From contig JANLHM010000008.1 in the NCBI GenBank assembly GCA_024654565.1, forward strand, positions 1 to 42,653: 42,653 nucleotides of DNA. Reading direction: 5' to 3'. The notes under the pieces are model-generated. The model was not told where the DNA came from. It saw only the letters and a list, made by a program, of their open reading frames with translations, and ran no database searches. The position numbers and the translations under genes were made by a program. How positions within the stretch are numbered: position 1 is the first letter of the stretch; the number at the start of each line of letters is the position of its first letter. Source of the DNA: Nanobdellota archaeon. Its GTDB lineage: Archaea > Nanobdellota > Nanobdellia > Pacearchaeales > GW2011-AR1. Below are positions 1-10,636 of the stretch, piece by piece.

Positions 1-107
1 AAGGAAAGTTCTTCTGACCTCGAGACTGGAGCGGAACCTCACAGGCTCGAGCTGGAAGAAGAATTTGGGGAATTTCTGCAAGAAATTCCTCTTTATCCCC
101 GGTTAAG
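1..107 (+). repeat. Partial copy (D) of the structured intergenic element; left end is outside the window
   Basis: Nested hairpin TTCTTC..CTCGAG..CTCGAG..GAAGAA, then AATTTGGG, then hairpin GAATTTCT-GC-AAGAAATTC, then CTCTTTATCCCC and GGTTAAG; same order of parts as copies A, B and C. Confidence 0.55.
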
Positions 108-254
108 TCGTGTGAGGCATTTATGCCGAAAGTCTGCAAGACGGCACCGAGCCGATAGGCGAAGGAGTTTTTTCTTCTGCGTTAAGAAAATTTAAATCTC
201 CTATCTTGGGTGGGAAGCGCGCGCTTTTTGCTTACTTTTTTCTAAAAAGCGAGA

Positions 255-1007
255 TTAGACTTTTTCCTCTGAATTACTTAGCATATTTTTTAAAAAACTC
301 CCAAAACTTCCTGTTCTTTGTTTTTCTGCTCTTTCTAAAGAACCTGCAGATTTTACACGAACATAATCTTTCACATAAGCTAAAACTCCATAAACAAATT
401 CTTTTGGAGATTCGGAAGTATAAAGTGGCTCAACTTCAAAAGAATCATCAACAAGTCCTTCTCTTTTTGCTTCTCTTTCAAATAATTTAAATCTCCAATA
501 TTGAGTCGGATTTGTTGCAATTTTCATATGATTAACTTTTTTTCTTTTCAGTTTTTTTATTGAATATAAAAAATTCTCTAAAGTATCCCTTGATTTTCCC
601 TCAATAATAAAATCAGAAGGTTTTAACCCATAATGCTCTCTTAATTCTTTGTAAATTGAATATTGCTGTGTATCTGGTTTTGGTCGCCCTCTTTCATCTC
701 TGTGAATTTCTCCACTAACAAGAACATAAGGTTTTGGCTCTTTTGTATGAGAATAACTTCTCATCGCTGTTTCAACTCTTTTTTCATCAGCTTCCAAAGT
801 TCCTGTTGGAATAACCAAAGATTCCAAAGATTTATTTGCTACAAATAAAATAAGAGACGCCATAAAAAAAGTTAAACCAAAAACGAAGAAAAGAGAATTT
901 GTAATTTTAATGTCGGTCCCTATAACTGCTCCAGTCAAAGTTACATCAACAGATAAAAACAAAAAAATAAATCCTGCAAACAATAAAACTAAAGGCAACT
1001 TTTTCAT
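255..1007 (-). CDS. YdcF/SanA-like (DUF218) membrane protein
   Basis: N-terminal TM segments; VLVSGEIHRDERGRPKPDTQQYSIYKELREHYGLKPSDFIIEGKSRDTLENF resembles the DUF218 core. Confidence 0.65.
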   Translation of the reverse strand: MKKLPLVLLFAGFIFLFLSVDVTLTGAVIGTDIKITNSLFFVFGLTFFMASLILFVANKSLESLVIPTGTLEADEKRVETAMRSYSHTKEPKPYVLVSGEIHRDERGRPKPDTQQYSIYKELREHYGLKPSDFIIEGKSRDTLENFLYSIKKLKRKKVNHMKIATNPTQYWRFKLFEREAKREGLVDDSFEVEPLYTSESPKEFVYGVLAYVKDYVRVKSAGSLERAEKQRTGSFGSFLKNMLSNSEEKV

Positions 1008-1256
1008 AAAGAAGAAAAGAAAAATAAACCTTAAAACCTTTTCGGAGTTAGAAAATATAAATTAGAAAAATTTGGGCGAAGCCTTTTATCGTTTGTTATG
1101 CGAAATTTTAATTTCGTGGTTTTCTCGTCGGTCAGGTAAAAGAAGTTTTTCTCTGAAACTTGTTTCAGCTATCTGTCCGTAGGACGCAGGCTTTTTTCTC
1201 GTATCTTGGGGGGCAAAAAATGAAATTTTAAATTTGGTCGCTTTAGCGACGCTGGG

Positions 1257-1370
1257 AACATCGCGATTTAAAGAAGTTTGCAATAGTATTCTGAGCGAAG
1301 CGAACTATCTTAAAAAAAATGCACATTTGGGCAAAATCCTGCAAGGATTTTCCTTTAAATCGCTGTTATG
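1257..1370 (+). repeat. Structured intergenic element, copy A
   Basis: AACA-TC-GCGATTTAAAG (1263-1273) and CTTTAAATCGC-TGTT (1353-1367) are inverted repeats; contains AAGTTT, ATTTGGG and hairpin AAATCCT-GC-AAGGATTT. Confidence 0.8.
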
Positions 1371-1405
1371 TGGGGAGGGTGCAACCCTACCGAGCGAAGC
1401 GACAG

Positions 1406-1418
1406 TTTTGAGTGTCCC
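1406..1418. repeat. Left arm of 13-bp inverted repeat flanking the TrmB/AlaE gene pair
   Basis: TTTTGAGTGTCCC, exact reverse complement of GGGACACTCAAAA at 2738-2750. Confidence 0.85.
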
Positions 1419-1421
1419 GTT

Positions 1422-2138
1422 TTAGTTTTTTGCCATCTTCCATAGTTCTTTGAAATATTCTAAATAAGATTTGTTTACTTCTTTGCTTTCTATTACTATT
1501 CCCCAATAAGGCTTCTGCCATATGAATATTGCTACTTTATCTTCAAAAATAAATGTAGATGATTTTCCTGTTAATGATTCAGTAAGAAATTTTACTTCTG
1601 ATATTTTAGACACAGATTTGACAATTTCAGAGTTCTTAAGTTGTAATCCAAGAATTGTTTTACTTTTTATTTTCAATTCTTGTTTTTGTTTTTGAAATTG
1701 ATAATAATAATGTTCCATTACTTCTGGAAATTGCTTTCCTGAACCAAAACTTACATATTCTTTTGTTTTTAGAATTATTCTCAAGATATTCATAATTCCT
1801 TCTTTGCCTTTATATGTGTAAACAGTAGATTCATTTTCATCATCATTATTCATTGATTTTAGACTTGGTAGTATTGCCATTGCTGATTTTTTCATATCAT
1901 CAATTTTTTTAACAATTATTTCTGGATCAATGGCAAAGAAATGCTTTGTATTATTAATTATGCTATGTGCAATAATGCCTTTTTCTTCTAATCTAGATAA
2001 AGAATCATAAACAGTTCTTCGATTCAATGCTGTTCGTTTAGTTATCTGTCCTGCAAGTAAATTTTTTTCTTTTAATAATTCTAAATAAATTTTAGATTCA
2101 CTTACATTAAATCCTAATTTTTGTAATTCTTGTTCCAT
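1422..2138 (-). CDS. TrmB-family transcriptional regulator
   Basis: N-terminal wHTH (LGFNVSESKIYLELLKEKNLLAGQITKRTALNRRTVYDSLSRLEEKGII) typical of TrmB, followed by an effector-like domain. Confidence 0.8.
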   Translation of the reverse strand: MEQELQKLGFNVSESKIYLELLKEKNLLAGQITKRTALNRRTVYDSLSRLEEKGIIAHSIINNTKHFFAIDPEIIVKKIDDMKKSAMAILPSLKSMNNDDENESTVYTYKGKEGIMNILRIILKTKEYVSFGSGKQFPEVMEHYYYQFQKQKQELKIKSKTILGLQLKNSEIVKSVSKISEVKFLTESLTGKSSTFIFEDKVAIFIWQKPYWGIVIESKEVNKSYLEYFKELWKMAKN

Positions 2139-2161
2139 ATAGATTTAGGGTTGCTTAAAGT

Positions 2162-2204
2162 ATATAAATCTTGTGGTAAGTGTCTGCACCACAAGGATTT
2201 ATAT
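2162..2204. promoter_or_regulatory. Palindromic operator/divergent promoter between the TrmB-like gene and the AlaE-like gene
   Basis: ATATAAATCTTGTGGT - 10 nt - ACCACAAGGATTTATAT, a 16-bp inverted repeat with one extra G, overlapping TATA-like sequences. Confidence 0.7.
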
Positions 2205-2227
2205 GGTTGTTTGAATGTTATTTATTT

Positions 2228-2734
2228 ATGAAAGATTCACTTAAAGAAAAAATTTACGATCAAGGAAAGAAGTATTTAGTGGATACTACATCTTCGTTGA
2301 TTTATTCAAATGCAGTTTTTACTCCAATAGAACTATTAACAACAGGAGGAAATTTGGAAGAGGTTTCTGAAACTAGGTTAAAAATGAGTTTAATTGCCCT
2401 AGCAATTTCTAGACCCTATGGGGCATTTAGAAATTTTTGGTCTCAAAAAGTATGGAAAGTTGATAAAGAATCTTCAAAGCTAAAAAAATATGCTTCAGAT
2501 GTTACAGCAAACCTTTCATATTATGGGGGAATCTACACAATTATGGCTCTTTCTAGTGGCAGAGATTTAAAAGAAATTGGAACGGCTTTAGCATGTGCGT
2601 CAATAACAACAGCGGTTACGGGGAGACCATATGGCATGTTTATGGATTATTGCAGAAAAAAAGTTGGAATTCAACCTGCAATAAAATCAAAAAATGATTT
2701 AGAAAGCAAAATTTTAAAGGAAGATGGCATTTAG
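2228..2734 (+). CDS. alaE: AlaE-like (L-alanine exporter family) membrane protein
   Basis: Two RPYG-type repeats: RPYGAFRNFWSQKVWK..YASDVTANLSYYGGIYTIM..TTAVTGRPYGMFMDYCRKKVG; ATG at 2228 preferred over the 2180 start in the ORF track. Confidence 0.75.
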   Translation: MKDSLKEKIYDQGKKYLVDTTSSLIYSNAVFTPIELLTTGGNLEEVSETRLKMSLIALAISRPYGAFRNFWSQKVWKVDKESSKLKKYASDVTANLSYYGGIYTIMALSSGRDLKEIGTALACASITTAVTGRPYGMFMDYCRKKVGIQPAIKSKNDLESKILKEDGI

Positions 2735-2737
2735 TTA

Positions 2738-2750
2738 GGGACACTCAAAA
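2738..2750. repeat. Right arm of 13-bp inverted repeat flanking the TrmB/AlaE gene pair
   Basis: GGGACACTCAAAA; pairs with 1406-1418. Confidence 0.85.
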
Positions 2751-2758
2751 TTGCAATT

Positions 2759-2872
2759 AACATCGGCATTAACAGAAGTTGTGTTCTCCTCGTGACCGAA
2801 GGGAACAGAGCTGAGAATTCAATTTGGGAAAATCACGAGCCGAGTGATTTTCCTGTTAATGCCTGTTAATAG
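2759..2872 (+). repeat. Structured intergenic element, copy C
   Basis: AACA-TC-GGCATTAACAG (2765-2775) ... CTGTTAATGCC (2853-2863)-TGTTAATAG; AATTTGGG and hairpin AAAATCAC-GAGCCGA-GTGATTTT inside. Confidence 0.8.
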
Positions 2873-2928
2873 ACCCGAACGAAGTGAGAGCGCAGCGTGG
2901 CAAGGATTTTCGTAGAAAATCCGCAGAG

Positions 2929-2941
2929 TAAAAATGAGCCG
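2929..2941. repeat. Left arm of 13-bp inverted repeat flanking the GAMT-like gene
   Basis: TAAAAATGAGCCG, exact reverse complement of CGGCTCATTTTTA at 3670-3682. Confidence 0.85.
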
Positions 2942-2990
2942 TCGTTAAGATGGGAGGATTTATAAATAAAAAGAATTATTAAATGATATA

Positions 2991-3668
2991 ATGAAAAAGA
3001 CGGTGTCAATAAGAAAAAAATTAGGATTCCCTACGAAAGCTCAATTTCTGAAAGAACATGCTATCTACACTCGAGAATCTCTTGATATTGCAGGTCATGA
3101 AATAATGCAAAGATGGGAAACTAACTATATGAAAAAACTTGCGTCGATTGCATGCGCAAATGGGGGAAAAGTTTTAGAGCTTGGTTTTGGGATGGGAATT
3201 AGTGCCCATTTTATTCAAAAATATAAATATTCACAATCGACGCCAAAAATTAAAAGTCATGTAGTTATTGAAGCACATCCTGAAGTTTGTAAGTATGCAA
3301 GAAAGATGTTTTCTAAAGAAATAAAAGTGGGACAATTAAAATTACTTCAAGGTTATTGGCAGGATGTTACAAAAGAATTAAAGAAGGAATCATTTGATGG
3401 AATTTTATTTGATACATATCCACTTACTGAAAAAGAAATTCACAAAAACCACTTTTATTTCTTCAAAGAGGCATACAGATTGTTAAAGAAAGGTGGTGTG
3501 CTGACTTATTATTCTGATGAGTCAAAGAGATTCTCCAAAGAACATTTACAGAAATTGAGAGAAGCTGGTTTTAAAAATATTGAGTGGGAATCCTGTAAAG
3601 TAAATCCTCCTAAAGAGAGCATGTATTGGAGGAGAAAAACAATACTTGCTCCAAAAATCATCAAGTAG
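2991..3668 (+). CDS. Guanidinoacetate N-methyltransferase-like SAM-dependent methyltransferase
   Basis: IMQRWETNYMKKLA, VLELGFGMGISA, FDGILFDTYPLTEKEIHKNHFYFFKEAYRLLKKGGVLTYYS; closely follows the GAMT pattern (VMERWETPYM, VLEVGFGMAIAA, FDGILYDTYPLSEE). Confidence 0.75.
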   Translation: MKKTVSIRKKLGFPTKAQFLKEHAIYTRESLDIAGHEIMQRWETNYMKKLASIACANGGKVLELGFGMGISAHFIQKYKYSQSTPKIKSHVVIEAHPEVCKYARKMFSKEIKVGQLKLLQGYWQDVTKELKKESFDGILFDTYPLTEKEIHKNHFYFFKEAYRLLKKGGVLTYYSDESKRFSKEHLQKLREAGFKNIEWESCKVNPPKESMYWRRKTILAPKIIK

Positions 3669-3669
3669 G

Positions 3670-3682
3670 CGGCTCATTTTTA
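3670..3682. repeat. Right arm of 13-bp inverted repeat flanking the GAMT-like gene
   Basis: CGGCTCATTTTTA; pairs with 2929-2941; starts 2 nt after the stop codon. Confidence 0.85.
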
Positions 3683-3685
3683 TTT

Positions 3686-3821
3686 CTATTAATCGCGATT
3701 TAAAGAAGTTTTTTTGTCCTCGAAAAATCCGACCCATATGGCTGGAGGATTTTTCAGAGCTGACAAAAAAATTTGGGGGAACAAGTGCAACGCAGTTTCC
3801 CTTTAAATCGCTGTTATACCC
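3686..3821 (+). repeat. Structured intergenic element, copy B
   Basis: CTATTAA-TC-GCGATTTAAAG (3695-3705) ... CTTTAAATCGC (3801-3811)-TGTTATACCC; nested TTTTTTTGTC/GACAAAAAAA and AAAAATCC/GGATTTTT. Confidence 0.8.
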
Positions 3822-3880
3822 TCCGAGCCGAAGGCGAGAGTGCAACGTGACCGAGAAAAATCTTTGATTTTTCGAAGGAG

Positions 3881-3894
3881 TAATTTTCGGCGCC
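3881..3894. repeat. Left arm of 14-bp inverted repeat flanking the deoxyribosyltransferase-like gene
   Basis: TAATTTTCGGCGCC, exact reverse complement of GGCGCCGAAAATTA at 4332-4345. Confidence 0.9.
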
Positions 3895-3930
3895 GTTACA
3901 TTTATAAAATGCCACAAAATAACTATTATT

Positions 3931-4332
3931 ATGAGAGAAATTTTGATATTAGGTTCATTACCGAGCAATAGGGCGGAAGAGAAACTTTACGAGGCAACGG
4001 TTGATGTCTGTAAAAATTATGCTAAAATAGTTTGTTCTCCAATAGATACTGCCAAATTTAAAGGAGATGACAGGCAGAGATATGATAGGGCATTACAAAA
4101 AGTAGAAAATGCCGATTTAATAATTGGAGAACAAACAAGACCATCAACAGGACAGGGAATGGAGATTGGTTATGCAATTAATCTAAAAAAACCAATCGTG
4201 GTAGTTGCCGAAGAAGGAAGTAAAGTTTCTGGATTGGTTAGGGGTTGCCCTATTGTGAGAGATATTTTATACTATAATTCTGTTGGAGATTTGGAAACAA
4301 AGCTCTCAAAATTTCTCGAAACTCATCAGTAG
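3931..4332 (+). CDS. Nucleoside 2-deoxyribosyltransferase-like protein
   Basis: REILILGSLPSNRAEEKLYEA..ENADLIIGEQTRPSTGQGMEIGYAINLKKPIVVVAEEG matches the deoxyribosyltransferase/DNPH1-like fold pattern. Confidence 0.7.
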   Translation: MREILILGSLPSNRAEEKLYEATVDVCKNYAKIVCSPIDTAKFKGDDRQRYDRALQKVENADLIIGEQTRPSTGQGMEIGYAINLKKPIVVVAEEGSKVSGLVRGCPIVRDILYYNSVGDLETKLSKFLETHQ

Positions 4333-4345
4333 GCGCCGAAAATTA
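4332..4345. repeat. Right arm of 14-bp inverted repeat flanking the deoxyribosyltransferase-like gene
   Basis: GGCGCCGAAAATTA; starts in the stop codon; pairs with 3881-3894. Confidence 0.9.
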
Positions 4346-4361
4346 TTGGGTATAACATAAG

Positions 4362-4387
4362 ATTATCAATAATAAACTATTGATAAT
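4362..4387. other. dif-like palindrome upstream of the tyrosine recombinase (candidate recombination site)
   Basis: ATTATCAATA-ATAAAC-TATTGATAAT: perfect 10-bp arms with a 6-bp centre; 11-6-11 layout if one flanking mismatch is included. Confidence 0.6.
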
Positions 4388-4444
4388 ATTCCATTTAGGG
4401 TTGAGAACAATAAATTTATAAAATATTTTTTCTTAGTAAAAATA

Positions 4445-5248
4445 ATGAATGGACTGAGATTAAAATTAGAAAGAGAACTAGAGATAAGAAACTTTTCAAA
4501 GCAAACAATTAAATCATACATTTATTCTGTTGACAAATTTATGGAATTCTCAAAGGATAAAGGATTAAATGAAGATATAGTTAAAATCTACACTCAAAAA
4601 AAACTTAAAGATAAAAATCCTGCTAGCGTTAGAAGAGATCTTTTTGCAATTAAATTCTTTTTTGATAAAGTTTTAAAACAAAAAATTAATGTCCCTAATC
4701 CAAAAAAGTATCTCTCCTTACCGGACATTTTAACAATTGATGAGATGAGAAAACTTATTGAAATCACTTCTAATGTTAAACATAGACTAATAATTAAATT
4801 GTTATATGGATGCGGATTAAGAGTTTCTGAGATAGTTGTCCTAAAAAAAGAAAATATAAATTTTGAAGAAGGATTAATAAAAATAATTTTGTCAAAGGGG
4901 AAAAAAGACAGATTTGTTAAAATTCCGCTTTCAATAATTAAAGAGTTAAAAAATTATTGTGAAATTGAAAAATCAAAAATATTGTTTCCATCTTCAAGAG
5001 GCGGAAAATTAACAAAAGATACTATCCAAAAAATTGTTCAGAACTCTGCAAAAAAGGCAGGTGTTAAAAAAAGGGTTTATCCTCATTTACTGAGACACAG
5101 CTTTGCAACACATTTACTTGAACAGGGAACTGATTTAAGAGTAATTCAAAAACTCCTTGGACACAGTTCGATTAAAACAACTCAAATTTATACTCAAATT
5201 TCTCAAGCATCAATCAAACAAGTAAAAAGCCCCTTAGACAATTTATAA
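4445..5248 (+). CDS. Tyrosine recombinase, XerA/XerC-D-like
   Basis: N-terminal SAM-like core-binding domain; catalytic pattern GCGLRVSEI..K..HLLRHSFATHLLEQGTDLRVIQKLLGHSSIKTTQIYTQ. Confidence 0.92.
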   Translation: MNGLRLKLERELEIRNFSKQTIKSYIYSVDKFMEFSKDKGLNEDIVKIYTQKKLKDKNPASVRRDLFAIKFFFDKVLKQKINVPNPKKYLSLPDILTIDEMRKLIEITSNVKHRLIIKLLYGCGLRVSEIVVLKKENINFEEGLIKIILSKGKKDRFVKIPLSIIKELKNYCEIEKSKILFPSSRGGKLTKDTIQKIVQNSAKKAGVKKRVYPHLLRHSFATHLLEQGTDLRVIQKLLGHSSIKTTQIYTQISQASIKQVKSPLDNL

Positions 5249-5249
5249 A

Positions 5250-5579
5250 ATGATTTCAAAAAACAAATTATTGTGGGAAATTTTAGTTCCGAAATGCTCT
5301 AACAGTGGAGAGAAGTTTGATGTTACTTTTCACAAAAAATGGGATATGGAAGTTGAAAAAGTTTCAGGGGGTTTGACAATACTTCGAACTGCAAAAGGTC
5401 GATGGATAAACCCGGATAAAAAGTTTTTTGTCGAGGAAATGATTCCGGTAAGGATATACTGCCAAGAGAAAGATATTGAAAAAATAATGAAGTTCACACT
5501 TAAATATTACAATCAGGAGTCCGTATTTTGCTACCTTGTGAGTGAGAAGGTAAAAATATTTAGAAGGAAGAAAAAATGA
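5250..5579 (+). CDS. Hypothetical protein
   Basis: ORF immediately downstream of the recombinase, tightly packed with the following genes. Confidence 0.55.
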   Translation: MISKNKLLWEILVPKCSNSGEKFDVTFHKKWDMEVEKVSGGLTILRTAKGRWINPDKKFFVEEMIPVRIYCQEKDIEKIMKFTLKYYNQESVFCYLVSEKVKIFRRKKK

Positions 5580-6103
5580 TAGAAAAGTCATCCCTCGGTC
5601 TTGTTCACATTTATACTGGAGAAGGAAAAGGAAAAACTTCAGCAGGGATGGGGCTTGTTGTTCGTGCTCTTGGGAGAGGACTCAAAGTAAAAATCATTCA
5701 GCTCTTCAAAAGGGATACGGGGGAGCAATTTTTCTTTGAAAACTCAGGAATTAAATATATTCAATTTAAGCCACTTCACCCTTATTTTAAAAATTATGAT
5801 TCAGTTCAGCTTGAAAGTTTGAAAAAAGAATTCCTTATTTTTTGGGAAGATGTGTTAAGGGATATTGATGAATATGATGTGATTTTAATTGATGAAGCGG
5901 GTCCAGGAATAAACTGGGGAATAATTCCTGAAGAGCTTATTTTTAACTTGATTAAAAACAAACCGAGAAACACGGAACTTATTTTGACTGGAAGAGACTT
6001 TCCCCTTTCAGTAAAAGACAAGGCGGATTATGTATCTGAAATAAAACATGTGAAACACCCTTATGACAAAGGAATATTAGCTAGAGAAGGAATTGAATAC
6101 TGA
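5576..6103 (+). CDS. Corrinoid adenosyltransferase-like (BtuR/CobO family) P-loop protein
   Basis: HIYTGEGKGKTSAGMGLVVRALGRG P-loop; DVILIDEAGPGINWGIIPEE; TELILTGRDFP. Confidence 0.8.
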   Translation: MIEKSSLGLVHIYTGEGKGKTSAGMGLVVRALGRGLKVKIIQLFKRDTGEQFFFENSGIKYIQFKPLHPYFKNYDSVQLESLKKEFLIFWEDVLRDIDEYDVILIDEAGPGINWGIIPEELIFNLIKNKPRNTELILTGRDFPLSVKDKADYVSEIKHVKHPYDKGILAREGIEY

Positions 6104-6150
6104 CATTTTTGTATAATTATTCTTAAAAAGGAGAAAACATAATTTGTTTT

Positions 6151-6648
6151 ATGTTAAAGAACATTAACTGGGATGATTACTTCATGTCAATGGTGTACCT
6201 TGTTGCAATGAGAAGTAAGGATGAGTCAACTCACGTAGGAGCTGTTGTTGTTGGGCCCGACAATGAAGTGAGGTCTCTAGGGTATAATGGGTTTCCCCGT
6301 GGACTTATTGACAATGTTCTTGAAAGACAGAAGAGGCCTGAAAAATATTTTTGGATTGAACACGCTGAAAGAAATGCCTTTTACAATGCTACCCTAATCG
6401 GAGTTTCACTCAAAGGGTGCAGAATGTACACAAACGGAACTCCATGTATGGATTGCGGGAGAGGAGTTGTGCAGTCTGGAATTGTTGAAGTTATAGTTGA
6501 CAAAAACTGGGAAAAACATAATCCTCCCGAATGGGAAAACCATGCAAACAAGACTAAGGTTATGTTTGATGAAGTTGGAATTAAACTCCGACACTGGGAA
6601 GGAAAGACAGCAAACATTGAAAAATTTATGAGGGGAGAAAAAATATGA
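6151..6648 (+). CDS. dCMP deaminase
   Basis: Zinc motifs HAERNAFYNA and TPCMDCGRGVVQSGI; N-terminal WDDYFMSMVYLVAMRSKDESTHVGAVVV. Confidence 0.88.
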   Translation: MLKNINWDDYFMSMVYLVAMRSKDESTHVGAVVVGPDNEVRSLGYNGFPRGLIDNVLERQKRPEKYFWIEHAERNAFYNATLIGVSLKGCRMYTNGTPCMDCGRGVVQSGIVEVIVDKNWEKHNPPEWENHANKTKVMFDEVGIKLRHWEGKTANIEKFMRGEKI

Positions 6649-6935
6649 TTCCAGTAATTTTGATGCTCCTTGATTTACTTGCACTTGTTTCACTTACTCT
6701 TATTCAGTTCAATATTTCCCTTGCACTACAACTTCCACTAATGTCTTCAATATACCTCATTGCAAAAGGGTTCATATTTAGAGATGTTATGAGTATAATT
6801 GACCTTCTTTGTGGAGTATACATATTAATTGCATTTATATTTGGCATTTCATCTTTCATATACTGGATAATTCTCGCTTGGTTTTTGTATAAGCTTTTCT
6901 TTGTCACAATCTTTAGTGCGATGAAATTTTCGTGA
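6645..6935 (+). CDS. Small membrane protein
   Basis: Hydrophobic segments; start overlaps the stop of the upstream gene. Confidence 0.55.
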   Translation: MIPVILMLLDLLALVSLTLIQFNISLALQLPLMSSIYLIAKGFIFRDVMSIIDLLCGVYILIAFIFGISSFIYWIILAWFLYKLFFVTIFSAMKFS

Positions 6936-6947
6936 GATTGTTTTAAA

Positions 6948-7502
6948 ATGATAATTGGAATAACGGGAACACTTGGTGCGGGTAAAGGAACGATTGTTGA
7001 ATTATTGAAAAAAAGGGGATTTAAGCATTATTCAGTAAGGGGTTTTTTAATTGAAGAGATAAAAGTAAGAAACCTTCCCATTAACAGGGATTCTATGGTT
7101 ATTGTTGCAAATTTGCTTAGAAATGAAAACTCTCCAAGTTATATTGCAACAAAATTATATGAAATTGCAGAAAAAAACGGGGGTAACTCTGTTATTGAAA
7201 GCCTAAGGGCCGTTGGAGAGGTAAAAGAATTGAAAAAAAATAAAGATTTTTATTTATTTAGCGTTGACGCGAATATAAAGAAAAGATATGAAAGAATTAT
7301 TAAGAGGGGTTCAGAGTCTGACAAAGTAAGTTATGAGAAGTTTCTGGAAGATGAAAAAAGAGAAATGGAAAACAGTGACCCTGCAAAGCAAGATTTAAAA
7401 AAATGTATTGAAATGTCTGACTTCAAGTTCCGAAATAACGGAACAATTAAAGGGCTTGAAAAAAAAGTCGAAGAAATTTTAAGGGAATTAAAATTTAAAT
7501 AA
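6948..7502 (+). CDS. P-loop nucleotide/dephospho-CoA-kinase-like protein
   Basis: IIGITGTLGAGKGTIVELLKKRGF Walker A and kinase-like lid region. Confidence 0.65.
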   Translation: MIIGITGTLGAGKGTIVELLKKRGFKHYSVRGFLIEEIKVRNLPINRDSMVIVANLLRNENSPSYIATKLYEIAEKNGGNSVIESLRAVGEVKELKKNKDFYLFSVDANIKKRYERIIKRGSESDKVSYEKFLEDEKREMENSDPAKQDLKKCIEMSDFKFRNNGTIKGLEKKVEEILRELKFK

Positions 7503-9360: not shown

Positions 9361-10068
9361 TTACAAATCTTCTGCAATTATCTCTCCGAAACTAGTCAAC
9401 ACAATTTTGACCAAATTTCCATCATTCCTAATTTCTACCAAACCTTTATCCTTTAGTTTTTTGCATAGGAAATGAAATTCACTTCTCAAACGATTTTCAT
9501 TATTTCCTTTAACATCTTTTATAAAATCTTTAACTCCAACTTTTTTATTCTCTTTTAGAAGATTTATAAGAATTTTTTCTTTTGGAGTAAATTTGATTTT
9601 ACTATTAATTATGGGAATTTCTATAATTTTTGAAAGACCGTTGTGAAAACCTTCCCCTTTCTCGACCAAAGCCATAATCTTTTTATTATGGCCTTCTGAC
9701 AATGAATACTCAAGCTTAATATTTTTTGTAAAAGAAATGAACATCAAAGCTGCTGAAAGGAGGTGTGAACCCGTTGAGAGGTTTATAGTAAAATTATCAT
9801 CTTTATTTCTTTTCAGATAATTGTTAATTTCTATAATTATGTCTTTTATATCAATGTAATTAACTTCCAAAAATTCAACTTTTGTGAATTTGGAAAGTTC
9901 TTGCAAAATGAATTTATTGACTTCTTGGGTTACTTTATCTGATTTAGAGTAACTATGACCTTTTTTCTGCTTTGTAGAAATTAAGCAAATTTTATCTGCT
10001 CCGCTTTTAAATGCAGTCTTTATTACAAGGTCCCTATCCCACCCTGAGGGGATAATATAAACTTTCAT
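9361..10068 (-). CDS. CARF-like sensor domain + winged-helix protein (HFX_2341/Csa3-like)
   Basis: Rossmann-like N-terminus MKVYIIPSGWDRDLVIKTAFKSGADKICLI; NLSTGSHLLSAALMF CARF-type motif; C-terminal wHTH. Confidence 0.65.
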   Translation of the reverse strand: MKVYIIPSGWDRDLVIKTAFKSGADKICLISTKQKKGHSYSKSDKVTQEVNKFILQELSKFTKVEFLEVNYIDIKDIIIEINNYLKRNKDDNFTINLSTGSHLLSAALMFISFTKNIKLEYSLSEGHNKKIMALVEKGEGFHNGLSKIIEIPIINSKIKFTPKEKILINLLKENKKVGVKDFIKDVKGNNENRLRSEFHFLCKKLKDKGLVEIRNDGNLVKIVLTSFGEIIAEDL

Positions 10069-10153: not shown

Positions 10154-10636
10154 ATGGGGGGAATAATTATTGCTGCATTATCAGAAAACAATGTAATAGG
10201 GGTGAACAATAAAATTCCATGGTATATTCCTGAAGATTTGACTCGGTTCAAAAAACTTACTTTGAATCACCCAGTTCTGATGGGAAAAAACACTTGGTTT
10301 TCAATCCCTGAAAAATTTAGGCCCCTCCCGAAAAGAAAGAATATTGTTTTGTCAAAAAGTTTAGAAAGTATTGAGGGGGTGCATATTGCAAGGAATATTG
10401 AAGAGGCTTTGGGCTTAACAGGAAATAAAGAATATTACATTATGGGAGGGAGTCAAATTTACCAGCAGTTTTTGCCTTTAGTTGACCATATGGAACTGAC
10501 AAGGATCCACCAAAATTTTGAAGGGGATTCATTCTTTCCCAAATTTGACTTTGAATCTTGGGATTTGCTTAATGAAGAAACAAGAGTGAGTGAAAAGAAC
10601 ATAAAGTATTCCTTTCAAAGTTATCTTAAAATATAA
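10154..10636 (+). CDS. folA: Dihydrofolate reductase
   Basis: IIAALSENNVIGVNNKIPWYIPEDLTRFKKLT..VLMGKNTWFSIP..YYIMGGSQIYQQFLP. Confidence 0.92.
   Translation: MGGIIIAALSENNVIGVNNKIPWYIPEDLTRFKKLTLNHPVLMGKNTWFSIPEKFRPLPKRKNIVLSKSLESIEGVHIARNIEEALGLTGNKEYYIMGGSQIYQQFLPLVDHMELTRIHQNFEGDSFFPKFDFESWDLLNEETRVSEKNIKYSFQSYLKI

Follow-up and report, generated by a model that had tools for sequence, protein, structure and literature searches.

Positions 1 to 4444 of contig JANLHM010000008.1, from a Nanobdellota archaeon (assembly GCA_024654565.1), hold unrelated genes parted by structured spacers, which raises the question of whether this archaeal genome carries an integron-like array of gene cassettes and, if so, what kind of recombinase serves it. 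The window, by which we mean the whole stretch of 42,653 nt that was analysed, is contig C6 of genome G000 (771 kb, 87.6% complete). Tandem gene cassettes parted by attC-like sites fill positions 1-4444, and a tyrosine recombinase gene comes next (4445-5248, plus strand). We propose that together they form an integron-like cassette platform of Nanobdellati (DPANN) archaea, of a Pacearchaeota kind, run by a XerA-type recombinase without the IntI-specific domain, and we put the probability of this reading at about 0.88. Observed directly were the sites, their pairing and fixed orientation, their link to the recombinase, the complementarity of cassette ends and the variable content beside a constant platform. 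An earlier reading of the letters, here called the original prediction, had suggested an integron-like array, and it is borne out by tandem one-orientation sites beside a recombinase, compensatory pairing, matching ends, variable cassettes and unrelated accessory genes. The recombinase itself was overlooked there; the system reaches beyond the 1-4444 interval then given. The genome had rightly been taken for archaeal, as the contig carries archaeal rpoB and rpoA genes 8 kb downstream of the recombinase, evidence against contamination by bacterial DNA.

The three complete spacers carry perfect 11-bp inverted arms on a shared plan. AAC(A)TC flanks the left arm and TGTT the right one, AAGTT comes directly inward of the left arm, and ATTTGGG lies in mid-site; the common architecture described earlier is thus exact in all of them. 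The first (1251-1373, plus strand) has the arms GCGATTTAAAG at 1263-1273 and CTTTAAATCGC at 1353-1363, with AAC at 1257-1259 and GTT at 1365-1367. The second (2753-2873, plus strand) has GGCATTAACAG at 2765-2775 and CTGTTAATGCC at 2853-2863 and folds with a z-score of -6.2, and the third (3685-3821, plus strand) repeats the first pair of arms, GCGATTTAAAG at 3695-3705 and CTTTAAATCGC at 3801-3811. A full-site MAFFT alignment (A1) misaligned the variable hairpins, and a trimmed alignment (A2) served to build a covariance model, R1, from eight sites of four genomes. The three window sites, themselves among the eight, score 61.6 bits (E-value 3.5e-11), 68 bits (1.1e-12) and 54.7 bits (1.5e-9), respectively. 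A fourth site (1-104, plus strand) is cut by the contig end and was read directly as a left hairpin AAGTTCTTC..GAAGAAGAATTT, GGGG, a right hairpin, a right arm and GTT at 102-104. Contig C9, on its minus strand, has an exact 94-bp overlap with window positions 1-94 and carries the missing left half of this site (..GTATAACATCGGGGATAAGGAAAGTT). Because the overlap lies inside an attC-like site, the array goes on into C9, the assembly having broken at that point, and one more site is found there (C9:1154-1243).

In R1, an AAC/GTT core is followed by a 2-nt bulge, an L stem of up to 11-12 bp and two hairpins, one starting with AAGTT and ending with AATTT and the other starting with GGG, which together give a three-way junction. 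The bulge reflects a left side that is mostly two bases longer than the right, and AACATC is present in 64 of 104 sites. Across 115 sites, 22 of the 27 pairs change on both sides, with 454 such cells against 131 in shuffles, and sliding the pairings lowers the paired share from 91% to 36-54%; this alignment was fitted to R1 and so is biased towards the model, and the 8-sequence alignment gives the same covariation picture.

A search of related archaeal genomes with a custom site model, which the original prediction had proposed as a check, found R1 sites in 38 of 111 relatives; in a phylum-wide sample, 85 of 279 genomes had them. Neighbouring sites within 10 kb of each other always lie on the same strand (55/55), at a median gap of 1390 bp. 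Where a recombinase had a site at most 20 kb away on the same contig, the nearest site was upstream and on the same strand in all 22 cases; new loci fetched later had the same arrangement (7/7, total 29/29), and arrays occupy the same place in those named Pacearchaeota loci whose upstream DNA is long enough. The genes in the cassettes lie on either strand (60/70, near random), while the strand of the sites is fixed.

The original prediction had noted that the short outer boxes pair with the box at the other end of the same gene unit better than across the spacer, naming TGTTATACCC/GGGTATAACA and TTAATAG/CTATTAA. Both pairs are real, and such pairing is not due to chance: in 20 loci left out of R1 building, the end boxes are complementary at five or more of six bases in 37 of 44 cassettes (84%), against 6 of 66 comparisons across a spacer and 10 of 150 between other cassettes (Fisher p 1.5e-23). 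The corresponding figure for the first locus set, at 5-6 of 6 bases, is 29 of 55 units (53%), with controls of 11/104 across the spacer and 17/210 between other units of the same locus. A second, cassette-specific terminal inverted repeat of 12-16 bp stands some 30-75 nt inside one end and has its exact reverse complement at the other, typically 2 nt inside the box there. Repeats of at least 12 bp were found in 37 of 64 cassettes (1.3% for mismatched ends) and, among the unused loci, in 28 of 42 (1.0%). End-repeat comparison identified one of 13-14 bp, on the plus strand, in each of the three window cassettes: TTTTGAGTGTCCC at 1406-1418 with GGGACACTCAAAA at 2738-2750, TAAAAATGAGCCG at 2929-2941 with CGGCTCATTTTTA at 3670-3682, and TAATTTTCGGCGCC at 3881-3894 with GGCGCCGAAAATTA at 4332-4345. 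The predicted circle junction of the methyltransferase cassette folds into one long branched stem (-49.3 kcal/mol, z -8.56). The repeats vary from one cassette to the next but remain paired, which suggests that shape, not sequence, is recognised.

The junction beside the recombinase bears on the polarity of the cassettes. A candidate attI at 4348-4388 (plus strand) consists of the cassette end GGGTATAAC, ATAA and a locus-specific palindrome, ATTATCAATA-ATAAAC-TATTGATAAT, and relatives have a similar layout. The palindrome (4362-4387) lies about 60 bp before the recombinase start, and the cassette end here has no L stem. The junction of AAC and a palindrome recurs upstream of the recombinases of many relatives, with perfect 11-bp arms in G010. 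If this is attI, the site of each cassette lies at the end distal to the recombinase, and the layout suggests that a spacer goes with the gene to its right. With the site on the far side, the crossover would fall at plus-strand AA^C (minus-strand G^TT), and three cassettes are predicted, all on the minus strand. The first, proximal to the recombinase, would hold a nucleoside deoxyribosyltransferase gene (3693-4355), the next a methyltransferase gene (2761-3692) and the third the TrmB and AlaE genes, with a site at its left end (1259-2760); the boundaries follow from the attI side, and the terminal inverted repeat supports the last of these as a unit. The cassettes predicted earlier (1366-2865, 2866-3813 and 3814 to ~4360) had the opposite polarity and are replaced by these. 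We rejected the crossover side on which they rested, as the recombinase-proximal cassette would then have no site of its own.

On the other side of the recombinase, five genes form a constant flank (5250-7502, plus strand) that encodes a 109-aa protein, CobO/BtuR, a dCMP deaminase, a 96-aa protein and an AAA kinase, in the same order in G010, G006 and, next to another recombinase, G001. In three species of the same genus (G000, G010 and G006) the recombinase and these genes keep their order, at 65-83% protein identity. None of the window cassette genes is present in the G010 array, so that cassette content differs beside a conserved flank; the G006 contig stops at the recombinase. In G001 (L287, G001:C48) the spot beside CobO holds a clade-2 recombinase (43% identity) with a cassette of its own, and in G003 (L289) and G004 (L288) the flanking genes are present without a recombinase or array. 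This spot may therefore be a hotspot for platform gain or exchange. One cassette gene is common to the arrays of G012 and G044 (78% DNA identity over 955 bp), whose recombinases are distant, and cassette-end segments of ~165 bp are 93% identical between families. Sites at most 200 bp from a contig end number at least 13, against 2.3 expected, which fits branching assembly paths, though repeats could be the cause too.

Several observations weigh against an active platform, or against parts of our account. Complementary ends were found in only half of the first-set cassettes, where weaker matches were kept and intervening sites were perhaps missed. The attI candidates vary, with no clear palindrome in some genomes (e.g., G012 and G027), and some recombinase copies next to sites have stops, frameshifts or split matches. 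In the window, the site at 3685-3821 has the left core TTAA--TC, in which CA is missing; two core bases short, it may be inactive. We compared one genome per species, and cassette movement is inferred. One alternative is that the arrays are fossils of a once-real cassette system, now mostly inactive in reduced genomes. Broken recombinases beside sites mean that part of the arrays may be relics; the damage points to repeated decay. The 2-base core deletion in the window site also speaks for this view, as do isolated sites without a recombinase among the R1 matches. Against this, the catalytic R, K, H, R, H and Y are invariant in all 13 aligned array recombinases, many cassettes have exact 6/6 end complementarity, and the 93% identity of cassette ends between families and the enrichment of sites at contig ends are likewise at odds with general inactivity. 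We therefore consider fossil arrays unlikely, if the most serious of the alternatives. Decayed recombinases of the array type were seen at G009:C12:8985-9773, G015:C4:2733-3527, G037:C9:6937-7594 (split matches) and G028:C4:529-1250.

A second alternative is that the array is a canonical integron, in which ordinary attC sites are served by a bacterial-type IntI encoded elsewhere or by a helper, the neighbouring XerA-type gene being incidental. Both share a general plan: a cassette has complementary ends, the sites are tandem and in a single orientation, the array lies 5' of the recombinase gene, and variable cassettes adjoin a constant platform. Moreover, IntI and attC have been reported in archaeal genomes including Nanoarchaeota, where they were found with bacterial attC models, with IntIs that carry the IntI-specific domain (Ghaly et al. 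2022, PMC9668308). The product of the gene at 4445-5248, however, is a tyrosine recombinase (267 aa) of the archaeal XerA type, with the catalytic R-K-H-R-H-Y intact and without the I2 insert of IntI. It falls short of the integron-integrase model TIGR02249 (191 bits, cut-off 265), which it matches in two stretches with the middle missing. Array recombinases in general score 179-213 bits in two stretches, against 523 and 410 bits in one stretch for two true IntIs, and have no I2 insert between patches II and III; their arm from GLR to HxLRH spans ~88-95 residues, compared with 133-146 in IntI and 93-98 in Xer. No IntI above the cut-off was found in the 279 genomes of the phylum, whereas a XerA-type gene stands at the array end in 29 of 29 cases.

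The sites also differ from ordinary attCs. A model built by us from ten bacterial attCs (R2, distinct from the IntegronFinder/HattCI models) gave 74, 136 and 150 matches in three Vibrio genomes as a positive control and none in eight array-bearing archaeal genomes; R1, conversely, had no match in the three Vibrio genomes. The original prediction had remarked that the boxes depart from the strict integron consensus, and indeed RYYYAAC and GTTRRRY fit only 24 and 22 of 104 sites, respectively, although the AAC/GTT core does fit. A strict search for RYYYAAC/GTTRRRY also overlooks the majority of genuine bacterial attCs, so that this consensus makes a weak test by itself. With no IntI-specific domain in the recombinase, and with two site models that are blind to each other, we place the system outside the known IntI/attC integrons. 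It works integron-like on every comparative feature tested, yet by the defining tests it is not a member. The kinship with integrons proposed originally thus holds for the general logic and fails for membership, and a canonical integron is very improbable here.

Slightly less probable again is that the recombinase belongs to ordinary XerA/dif machinery for chromosome dimers and that the repeats are nearby regulatory or repetitive elements with no connection to it. The recombinase passes the NCBI archaeal XerA model NF040815 (232 bits, cut-off 220), some other array recombinases scoring just under the cut-off (207-219 bits), and the attI palindrome is dif-like, with two 10-11 bp arms around 6-8 nt. 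The phylogeny speaks against this explanation. Besides the array recombinase, contig C1 of the genome holds a Xer-type gene (45% identity) and C3 an integrase that is more distant, and the genome's second XerA-type gene sits in a separate housekeeping clade (support 99), apart from the main array clade (100), whose recombinases fall outside the housekeeping clade. A second array clade has a support of 96 and the IntI clade one of 100, and the IntI and array clades meet at an open node. A few array-linked sequences fall outside the array clades, one of them inside the housekeeping group, and L029, wrongly labelled 'archaeal_other' in the tree, adjoins a cassette in G001. The adjacency of sites and recombinase is also fixed in position and strand, and the sites come as arrays. 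Equally improbable is that the spacers are RNA elements (terminators, riboswitches or leader RNAs) or repeats resembling repetitive extragenic palindromes or miniature inverted-repeat transposable elements rather than recombination sites: they do fold well as single strands and are intergenic, but their strand is tied to the recombinase (55/55, 29/29) rather than to the genes, which are mixed in strand, their outer boxes pair within the gene unit and not across the spacer, and an Rfam scan of window positions 1-5500 gave no family match.

On the integron-like reading that we prefer, the order on the minus strand would be the recombinase, facing away, then the attI-like junction and the cassettes. 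Each cassette would run from its G^TT through box R', 2 nt, the inverted repeat, the gene, the partner repeat, a leader of ~55 nt, box R'', AAC, A, an 11-bp arm, two hairpins, a second 11-bp arm and GA to TG^TT. We infer that one strand of the cassette end folds in the cell into a long stem, in which the cassette-specific repeat, the R boxes and the L arms would all be paired, with the conserved 2-nt bulge beside the AAC/GTT core and the three-way junction inside. The recombinase would read the shape of this site rather than its sequence, cut at the core, and join the folded site with the putative attI or with another site, so that a gene circle would be inserted or cut out and cassettes would be mobile.

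The genes of the array are varied. The window cassettes encode a TrmB-family regulator (1422-2138, minus strand; PF01978, 1e-13), an AlaE-like alanine exporter (2180-2734, plus; PF06610, 2.7e-21), a small S-adenosylmethionine methyltransferase (2991-3668, plus; PF13847, 3.4e-6; PF01564, 3.4e-5), which matches several methyltransferase families and, weakly, spermidine synthase, and a nucleoside 2-deoxyribosyltransferase (3931-4332, plus; PF05014, 2.6e-10). Further out lies a 250-aa DUF218-domain cassette gene (255-1007, minus; PF02698, 1.6e-9). TATA-like boxes were read from the sequence in the cassettes, e.g., TTTATAAA near 2957 and 3901, which suggests that cassette genes may have promoters of their own. 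The 95 cassette proteins sampled match 84 Pfam families, none with more than five members. About 30 PADLOC families match cassette proteins of alignment A7, among them HEC-05, HEC-09, an NYN nuclease and several candidate defence systems, and on these matches the arrays may hold defence genes. Leader segments of ~60-170 bp inside cassettes are up to 93-98% identical across distant genomes while the genes differ; loci with near-identical leaders are L088, L098, L097, L099, L100, L103 and L034.

A gene-less structured block (1048-1256, no strand assigned) with the half-site ATTTGGG..CCTTTTATCGTTTGTTATG was delimited by eye in comparison with L034. The block, CGTCGGTC..AAAAGAAGTTTTTCTC..CTATCTTGGG, recurs beside sites or recombinases of other genomes, in L034 (~10290-10540) and in L040 upstream of the recombinase, and a relative of it adjoins the recombinase in G010; the degenerate element near 1095 within it is real sequence and has no match to R1. 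Away from the array, a Csa3/HFX_2341-like regulator (9361-10068, minus strand) lies beside thymidylate synthase and dihydrofolate reductase genes.

The recombinase has close relatives in genomes labelled Candidatus Pacearchaeota and in one labelled Aenigmatarchaeota. Related recombinases also occur in bacteria (Flavobacteria and Gracilibacteria), where a generic palindrome scan of the loci found no arrays and R1 gave no more than single weak sites in the genomes; no R1 sites were found at the Gracilibacteria loci L177, L178 and L180. The recombinases of these three loci branch with the archaeal array-linked L086 (support 95), a grouping for which cross-domain transfer is possible. A single R1 match (L224, G359:C127:14981-15077, E-value 4e-5) lies in a Bacteroidota genome. 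Viral contigs held no close relative of the recombinase, the best long match having 40% identity, and no convincing sites.

Integron integrases recognise folded attC sites through a special I2 domain. The origin of this domain and of attC has been called a chicken-and-egg paradox, each being useless without the other (Escudero et al. 2016, PMC4792948). An array system on a Xer-type enzyme without I2 would show that domain and sites can exist apart; it bears directly on the paradox and supplies enzymes and sites open to direct testing. We lean, with some reserve, towards a third form of gene-capture platform, in which a plain Xer-type enzyme would act on shape-coded, single-stranded sites with a three-way junction. 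Widespread in DPANN, this form would be either ancestral to IntI integrons, as a pre-I2 intermediate, or an independent invention. If true, it would mean that ultra-small archaea, about whose gene flow little is understood, have a widespread route of gene capture, one missed by the bacterial attC model R2.

Among known systems, a search of the open-access literature, outside which lay subscription papers and preprints, found no description of a XerA-linked cassette system. Bacterial integrons (IntI1-3 and those of Vibrio chromosomes) share the tandem, one-orientation cassettes with accessory genes beside a tyrosine recombinase, the AAC/GTT core, outer boxes paired within the cassette and inner arms paired across the site, a putative attI-like junction, and the geometry of site and recombinase that follows from the polarity proposed here. 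They differ in that their recombinase has the I2 insert. The archaeal site, unlike bacterial attC, has a three-way junction, conserved AAGTT and TTTGGG boxes and 11-bp arms, and one 2-nt bulge in place of two separated extrahelical bases (PMC3053210). The archaeal cassettes further differ in their extra cassette-specific terminal repeat and leader, in genes on both strands and in the rarity of RYYYAAC/GTTRRRY. The archaeal integrons of Ghaly et al. 2022 likewise lie on archaeal chromosomes, including Nanoarchaeota, and have cassettes with folded sites; going by their published description, our arrays are set apart by the absence of an IntI domain and of detection by bacterial attC models. The closest solved relatives by sequence are archaeal XerA (Pyrococcus abyssi, PDB 4a8e; PDB 5hxy) and IntI4 (2a3v). 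Archaeal XerA shares its domain layout and catalytic residues with the array recombinase, whereas housekeeping XerA falls in another clade and is not array-linked, with possible exceptions such as G059:C3 (L120). Finally, elements that exploit Xer, such as CTXphi (PMC4792948), also depend on a folded single-stranded stem on which a Xer-type enzyme acts, but the recombinase described here has its gene at the array and would serve cassettes rather than a phage.

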